Of a DNA stretch of 33,227 nt, positions 16,123 to 20,976 are shown piece after piece (within the stretch, counting starts at the first letter, position 1; each line of letters opens with the position of its first letter). Both the position numbers and the translations under genes were made by a program. The notes under the pieces were generated by a model that was not told the origin of the DNA, ran no database searches, and was given only the letters and a program-made list of their open reading frames with translations. The DNA comes from Kiloniellaceae bacterium (lineage in GTDB: Bacteria > Pseudomonadota > Alphaproteobacteria > Kiloniellales > J153). The stretch is from contig JAJFGP010000061.1 in NCBI GenBank assembly GCA_021776055.1, forward strand, positions 1 to 33,227, in the 5' to 3' direction.

Positions 16123-19882
<3,760 letters not shown>

Positions 19883-19885
19883 AGT

Positions 19886-20135
19886 ATACCAAGTCTCGCT
19901 AATATTGACCCATTTCATGGCGGTGGATGGGCCGTCCGGCTAGGCGCGCGGCGCTCACCCCCCTCCCAACCTCCCCCCATCAAGGGGGGAGGGGCGGTCT
20001 ATCGCGACGTACCTTTTTCCCCCTCCCCCTTGTTGGGGGAGGGCCGGGGTGGGGGTGGCTCTTGAACGTTCGAACTATGCCAAGTCTCCCGAGGACTTCA
20101 CCATGAAATGGGTCAATATTAGCGAGACTTGGTAT
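19886..20135. mobile_element. 250-bp nested inverted-repeat element (MITE/REP-like) between bamD and recN
   Basis: The outer arms are perfect 35-bp inverted repeats (19886-19920 and 20101-20135, starting ataccaagtctcgctaat). Inside are two G/C-rich hairpins, 19970-19992 (loop atcaa) and 20021-20043 (loop ttgtt), which are themselves approximate inverted copies. The C-rich cacccccc...aaggggg pattern is familiar from REP-like repeats in alphaproteobacteria. There is no ORF of note and no transposase. The element fills the gap between the bamD stop (4 bp away) and the recN start (3 bp away). No clear target-site duplication is seen. Confidence 0.8.
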
Positions 20136-20139
20136 TGTC

Positions 20140-20976
20140 TCAAATGATCGAATTCCACACGCGGGATATCCAGGACCCCTTGGCCTCTTCGGGGCGCAGA
20201 TCGACGCCCGTCAGGAGCACGTAACTCTCGGCGTACCAGACGTTGCCCGGAAAATTGTGGCCAAGTACGGCGGCTGTGGCCTGGGCCTCGTCATTTATAC
20301 CAAGGGCTATATAGCTCTCCACCAGGCGGTGCAGGGCCTCGGGGACGTGTGTCGTGGTCTGGTAGTCCTGGATGACCATGCGGAAGCGGTTGATGGCTGC
20401 CAGGTATTCGCCTTGGCCCTGATAGAAACGGCCGATGTCCATGTGCTTGCCGGCGAGATGATCGCGCGCCAGGTCTACCTTCAGGTTGGCGTCACGGGCA
20501 TAGCGGCTTTCCGGGAAGCGCCGCACCACGTCGTCGAGCCCTTCGAGGGCTAGCTGGGTCATCTTCTGGTCGCGCCCGACATCCGATATCTGTTCATAGT
20601 AGCTGATGGCCCTCAGGTAATAGGCGTAGGGCGCATCCCGGCTGCCCGGGTGCAACTGGATGAAGCGGTCCAGGGCGTTGATGGCCTCGTCGTACTTGTT
20701 GTTCTGATAATGGGCGTACGCCGCCATGAGTTGGGCCTTGGAGGCCCAGACCGAATAGGGATGCTGGCGCTCCACCTCATCGAACAAGCGTGCCGCTTCG
20801 TCGTATTCGGCAGTCAAAAGCTGGTCCATCGCCGTGTTGTAGAGATCCTCGACCGGGCGCTCCACATAGGCCGGCTCTTCATCCGAACTACACGCCACAA
20901 GTCCTAGCAGCAGGAGGGTGACCGCAATCGCCCGCCCGAGCGTTGAAAAAATTTTACCGGAATCCTGTATCCGCAT
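20140..20976 (-). CDS. bamD: Outer-membrane protein assembly lipoprotein BamD
   Basis: This lipoprotein of 278 residues has signal TLLLLGLVAC and Cys29 as the acylation site, with Ser-Ser following, consistent with outer-membrane sorting. The mature part is a run of TPR-like helices: LYNTAMDQLLTAEYDEAARL, VWASKAQLMAAYAHYQNNKY, GSRDAPYAYYLRAISYYEQ, RFPESRYARDANLKVDLARD, YLAAINRFRMVIQDYQTT and HVPEALHRLVESYIALGI. This is the YfiO/ComL pattern. BamD is the essential lipoprotein partner of BamA in the beta-barrel assembly machine on the periplasmic side of the outer membrane. It lies between lpxC and recN, as in many alphaproteobacteria; an intrinsic terminator after lpxC implies its own promoter, or read-through. 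Confidence 0.96.
   Translation of the reverse strand: MRIQDSGKIFSTLGRAIAVTLLLLGLVACSSDEEPAYVERPVEDLYNTAMDQLLTAEYDEAARLFDEVERQHPYSVWASKAQLMAAYAHYQNNKYDEAINALDRFIQLHPGSRDAPYAYYLRAISYYEQISDVGRDQKMTQLALEGLDDVVRRFPESRYARDANLKVDLARDHLAGKHMDIGRFYQGQGEYLAAINRFRMVIQDYQTTTHVPEALHRLVESYIALGINDEAQATAAVLGHNFPGNVWYAESYVLLTGVDLRPEEAKGSWISRVWNSII

Follow-up and report, generated by a model that had tools for sequence, protein, structure and literature searches.

Rhizobial genomes carry RIME repeats, which are about 108–110 bp long. RIME and the CIR repeats of Caulobacter and Brucella, both cited in PMC2573895 and PMC2229807, are, by description, the nearest alphaproteobacterial repeats to the element described here. 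According to these descriptions they share with our element an intergenic position and a palindromic structure, CIR consisting of two stem arms and a linker; unlike CIR, which is about 110 bp long and contains GANTC sites, the element has a length of 250–262 bp and no GANTC was found by inspection between positions 19886 and 20135. Prokaryotic MITEs, for instance Correia/NEMIS, RUP, ERIC and QMITE2 (reviewed in PMC10969869), resemble it in being short, gene-free and intergenic, with inverted terminal repeats, a target duplication and a transcript that folds as a long hairpin. Head-to-head hairpin pairs in many intergenic copies are shared with REP dimers, BIMEs and REPINs, and REP dimers located within long palindromes have been described in Anabaena variabilis and H. 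neapolitanus (PMC3733652), a precedent for the nesting of a REP-like family (B) within a MITE-like family (A) reported below.

The window, that is, the whole 33,227-nucleotide stretch of DNA analysed, contains a single long spaced inverted repeat, the arm pair within the bamD–recN gap (Table 1). As an earlier note made from the letters had claimed, the two arms are complementary at 35 of 35 positions across 180 nt, and the element fills the gap, lying 3 bp from the recN ATG and 4 bp from the bamD stop codon. The two C-rich hairpins that the note had placed between the arms were also recovered: 19970–19997 and 20020–20047 are each self-complementary, and a self-match in reverse orientation identifies the core as an inverted pair. 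The 261-nt strand comprising the element was predicted to fold at −152.1 kcal/mol, as compared with a mean of −100.3 for shuffled sequences (z −9.2), and none of 200 shuffles reached so low a value. An ORF scan found no frame of at least 60 aa wholly inside 19886–20135, and no T-run terminator was seen at the window copy. Against Rfam, the window gave no match at the gathering threshold, and nine loci searched at E values up to 10 gave none above the gathering score, only chance matches.

Table 1 Features of the bamD–recN region in the window.
Feature	Position	Strand	Basis
Family A left outer arm, TACCAA-type terminal inverted repeat	19886..19920	+	35/35 inverted repeat; related arms elsewhere in genome
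Truncated left half of family A hairpin module 1 (CGGTGGATGGGCCGTCCGGCTAGGCGCGCGGCGC), with conserved CTAGGCGCG motif	19921..19954	+	blastn
Family B, two C-rich hairpins forming a REP-like head-to-head dimer, within or in place of the family A middle	19955..20060	.	blastn
Segment with a fragment like an element end (TGCCAAGTCTCCC)	20061..20100	.	9–11 bp matches to family A ends
Family A right outer arm, complementary to the left one over its whole length	20101..20135	-	inverted-repeat match
recN, gene downstream	18200..19882	-	RecF/RecN/SMC domain; start MLVSL aligned in ~30 relatives
bamD (YfiO), gene upstream	20140..20976	-	YfiO PF13525; stop codon 20140–20142

The earlier note had proposed either a MITE or a pair of opposed REP sequences, and both descriptions turned out to apply, each to a different layer of the element. 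A genome search with the arm found it with 0–3 mismatches at eight places, the two window arms included, and in all, related arms occur at about 15 places of the same genome (G000) besides the window copy. Searching with the whole element returned 65 matches, which belong to two independent families: the outer arms define the dispersed, MITE-like family A, and the C-rich core defines family B, a pair of opposed REP-like hairpins that is dispersed on its own. A degenerate arm pattern matched seven of the nine genomes of the bacterial family, with 25 matches in G000 and 75 in G002, and the reversed control pattern had none. At most comparable family A sites of G000, the same-genus genome G001 has joined flanks, as at locus L044, where the empty site reads ...CACGTTAAGGGCG...; some sites (L043, L047 and L048) were too diverged to place the insertion junction. 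The arm recurs and the gap of relatives is empty, the reverse of the single arm and conserved gap sequence by which the note would have recognised a local structure, and the feature is a mobile repeat.

When the flanks were joined outside ATACCAA...TTGGTAT, the result was as a rule longer than the empty site by a single base (for example, GCGATCCTT joined to AGGGAGCC, as opposed to GCGATCTTAAGGAGCC), from which it follows that 3-bp duplications lie outside TACCAA...TTGGTA. Identical flanking triplets, mostly TAA or TTA, were present in 35 of 74 copies, against a shuffled mean of 21.4 (p 1e-4). These values fit insertion of family A at TWA with a 3-bp target duplication and ends TACCAA...TTGGTA. 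The triplets flanking the window copy differ (GTA/TTG); its actual left terminus is probably at 19887, with 19884–19886 as a decayed target duplication whose length is taken from the empty sites and the 74 copies.

Judged by sequence similarity, the window copy is a composite, with arms and left 68 bp from family A and a core from family B. Those 68 bp (19887–19954) are 75–87% identical by blastn to intact family A elements of G000, G002 and other genomes, and positions ~19953–20060 are 72–84% identical to more than ten dispersed family B copies that have no family A arms. The segment that follows, of about 40 bp, is probably rearrangement debris, its matches to family A ends being short and none of them significant. 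The covariance model R1, built for the family A module, detected no module in the window copy. Family B fits the definition of REP/REPIN sequences in forming short hairpins arranged as head-to-head dimers in many extragenic copies, and neither the GTAG nor the CGTC tag of the described super-families (PMC3733652) is present in its unit, TCACCCCCACCCC plus CCCTCCCCCATCAAGGGGGAGGG.

A first extraction gave 30 paired family A elements, mostly of 259–264 bp, with an intact length of about 262 bp. Full-length copies share one fold, in which an outer stem of about 32 bp encloses a pair of hairpins, each about 95 nt long, with a short linker. Reverse-complementing one hairpin shows it to be homologous to the other, so the element is a convergent, head-to-head pair of modules. 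The lower stem of a module, about 20 bp long, is nearly free in sequence; above it come the conserved internal loop YAGGMG / RACGC, the upper stem and, at the apex, a GATG..CATC hairpin. Modules were paired in 65 of the 74 loci scanned, 7–10 nt apart (23 nt in three), and seven of the nine unpaired loci reach contig ends. Family A thus has terminal inverted repeats, a constant 3-bp duplication, dispersed copies with empty sites and no coding capacity, as MITEs do; unlike MITEs, it has a GC-rich interior, which is unusual for them, made up of two homologous inverted modules with strict covariation. It also differs from REP units (20–40 bp) in its size, its outer stem of 32 bp and its target duplication. 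In short, family A is MITE-like in its working and REPIN-like in its interior.

The covariation is extensive. When 29 modules were aligned, changes on both sides were seen at 23 of the 25 consensus pairs, and 91.3% of the module stem cells were paired, as against 67.9% in shuffled data and 37–46% for slid structures. The outer arms behave in the same manner, with 28.3 of 30 positions identical within an element and 22.3 of 30 between elements (74 copies). In an identity-only alignment, G.T mispairs in module orientation outnumbered A.C mispairs in the lower stems (95 vs 34) and in the upper stems (95 vs 33), a hint that a single strand of the module is what folds, related copies not being independent of one another. 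By eye, five of the 74 copies, all in G002 (L297, L298, L300, L302 and L307), have left and right arms of different subfamilies (GGAGCG vs AGGACC or TCTCG); they are recombinants or the outcome of paired-end mobilisation of two copies, and because they exist, the arms need not pair perfectly. In G000 (L071, L072, L073 and L085) a further palindromic family was seen that shares the inner hairpin and has TAGAGCATGA...CCAAATGG as its outer arms; its ends resemble repeats known from rhizobia.

The same body, at the same length, was found not only with TACCAA/TWA ends but also with CTAG at both ends followed by AGC.., TGGC.. or CCCG.., CTAG having been a condition of one extraction of these copies but not of two others. 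In G007, a CTAG-ended palindromic element with the same kind of body is nested in a module of a TACCAA-ended element (L087), at the CTAG of that module's own CTAGGAGCG motif. Both this nesting element and the motif, which is canonical for the module, speak for CTAG as the target that is duplicated. An IS1380-family element in G293 (L365), which itself has CTAG duplications, has ends (CCYSAATTATTCAT) similar to those of the CCCG class. The resemblance is modest (mostly 10–11 of 18 bases) and covers only one CTAG terminus class, leaving aside the other CTAG classes and the TACCAA class, to which the IS1380 ends gave no match. A second IS group targeting CTAG in these genomes is represented in G007 (L368 1–848) and G018 (L359 1070–1924) by IS5-like elements about 850 bp long, whose ends read CTAG and whose terminal repeats read GGGTC...

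The full-length parent with a transposase that the earlier note had hoped for did not appear: the Y1_Tnp, PF13340, PF01609 and PF13586 loci yielded no candidate for the TACCAA ends, and this class is, unlike typical MITE families, without a matching IS here. The G000 assembly, in 183 contigs that break at repeats, carries one broken DDE_Tnp_1 gene and two RAYTs with no A or B repeats adjoining. A TACCAA pair around the RAYT of L258 was considered as a parent end and rejected as a chance match, given its lack of arm similarity. The RAYT gene of L256 (G000 contig C117) is flanked by a repeat of its own, AAGGGGACGCTACCCTTTT, unrelated to families A and B, and none of the RAYT loci retrieved for G000 and relatives contained a family B-type unit.

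The gap itself is short in most of about 30 relatives, with 7 bp between bamD and recN in G002, G006 and G008. In G003 it holds a remnant of 13 bp from a terminus of that genome's own family A subfamily, and G007, which belongs to another genus, has a family A copy of a different subfamily there (413 bp, L087 2295–2707), placed about 5 bp differently. Insertions at this gap thus look repeated rather than inherited. An in-frame ATG in the left arm (19918) could start RecN 12 codons before the conserved start, adding MKWVNISETWYT (window 19883–19918), and any read-through transcript from bamD into recN likely gains a very stable predicted hairpin from the element. A function of the element at recN can only be inferred.

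We consider it probable that the window element is a degraded, non-autonomous, MITE-like family A copy that was inserted in the 7-bp bamD–recN gap and was later invaded or remodelled by the REP-like dimer family B; a DDE-type transposase presumably moved it in trans. Family A, carrying no genes, would have entered the gap with duplication of a 3-bp TWA target, through a transposase acting in trans on its outer arms; DDE chemistry is suggested by the short, fixed duplication and the inverted ends. A family B dimer would afterwards have invaded or replaced the middle of family A, in what is presumably the order of events. Since the stems change by compensating substitutions, the folded modules may be selected as a single-strand structure, either RNA or ssDNA, although the covariation could also stem from template switching that homogenises the palindrome arms, and not from selection for the fold.

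A structured regulatory RNA, spread by transposition and kept for terminating, attenuating or stabilising transcripts at gene ends, would also explain the covariation of the modules and the very stable fold, and in 32 of the 74 copies the duplicated triplet is exactly the stop codon of an upstream ORF. However, this proportion does not exceed the one for non-coding TWA sites (77/213, p 0.13), so purifying selection suffices for the stop-codon positions and we discarded stop-codon targeting. The window copy, moreover, has no T-run terminator and has lost its modules, the same-genus genome is empty at most compared sites, and the symmetry of the palindrome makes an action in one polarity only impossible. 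Altogether, we regard this explanation as unlikely.

Rather less likely still is a REPIN/BIME reading, in which the entire family is a REP dimer that has expanded: a RAYT tyrosine transposase would mobilise it via a single-stranded intermediate, and the outer arms would be a mere extension. In its favour, the modules form hairpin pairs placed head to head and have an unpaired YAGG..RACG motif that is similar to the GTAG tag; G.T mispairs exceed A.C mispairs, as folding of one strand per module should produce; and six of the eight genomes have RAYTs. Nevertheless, TWA or CTAG duplications are not known from REP insertions. In addition, G002 and G008, with 69 and 25 modules respectively, gave no Y1_Tnp match, and the RAYT loci of G000 have no A or B repeats, that of L256 being flanked by its different repeat. 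A conserved cis-structure local to the bamD–recN operon is highly improbable and is refuted by the empty sites: G007 does have a family A element in the same gap and G003 its 13-bp remnant, but most relatives have a short gap, the G007 element is of another subfamily, shifted by about 5 bp and bearing the nested CTAG-type element, and copies lie at many unrelated loci. An inverted duplication produced by assembly or amplification can be practically dismissed, for despite the fragmented assembly and the repeats at contig ends, the same arms recur elsewhere with independent flanks, the empty sites match closely, the contig is long and the flanking genes are intact.

Beyond this locus, 38 of the order's 61 genomes gave R1 matches, the scored ones numbering 69 at most, and R1 was null in many relatives that had given as many first-look candidates in the order-level scan; in the class, 33 of the 241 genomes sampled had matches at E ≤ 1e-4. 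A plasmid collection yielded one partial match, a CTAG-type element on plasmid pCSC3H3 of the cultured Thalassospira marina, confirmed by R1, with an outer stem unrelated in sequence. A search of the literature on palindromic repeats, MITEs, RIME and CIR, mostly outside subscription papers, found no description of family A. We propose, tentatively and at somewhat less than an even chance, that family A is an undescribed class-wide element that conserves its fold and not its sequence: two convergent 95-nt modules form a Y-shaped body, which has acquired different ends (TACCAA/TWA, several CTAG classes and the unrelated outer stem of Thalassospira marina), and would hence be movable by different transposases.

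Small mobile repeats of bacteria are mostly recognised by their sequence, whereas the arms and stems of family A vary from copy to copy while remaining complementary, and a single body is combined with various ends and target sites across many alphaproteobacterial lineages. If our proposal is true, it would provide a non-autonomous element in which the use of more than one transposase can be tested. In its host genomes, family A places strong hairpins where genes end and between the genes of operons, and it may explain assembly breaks in these genomes.
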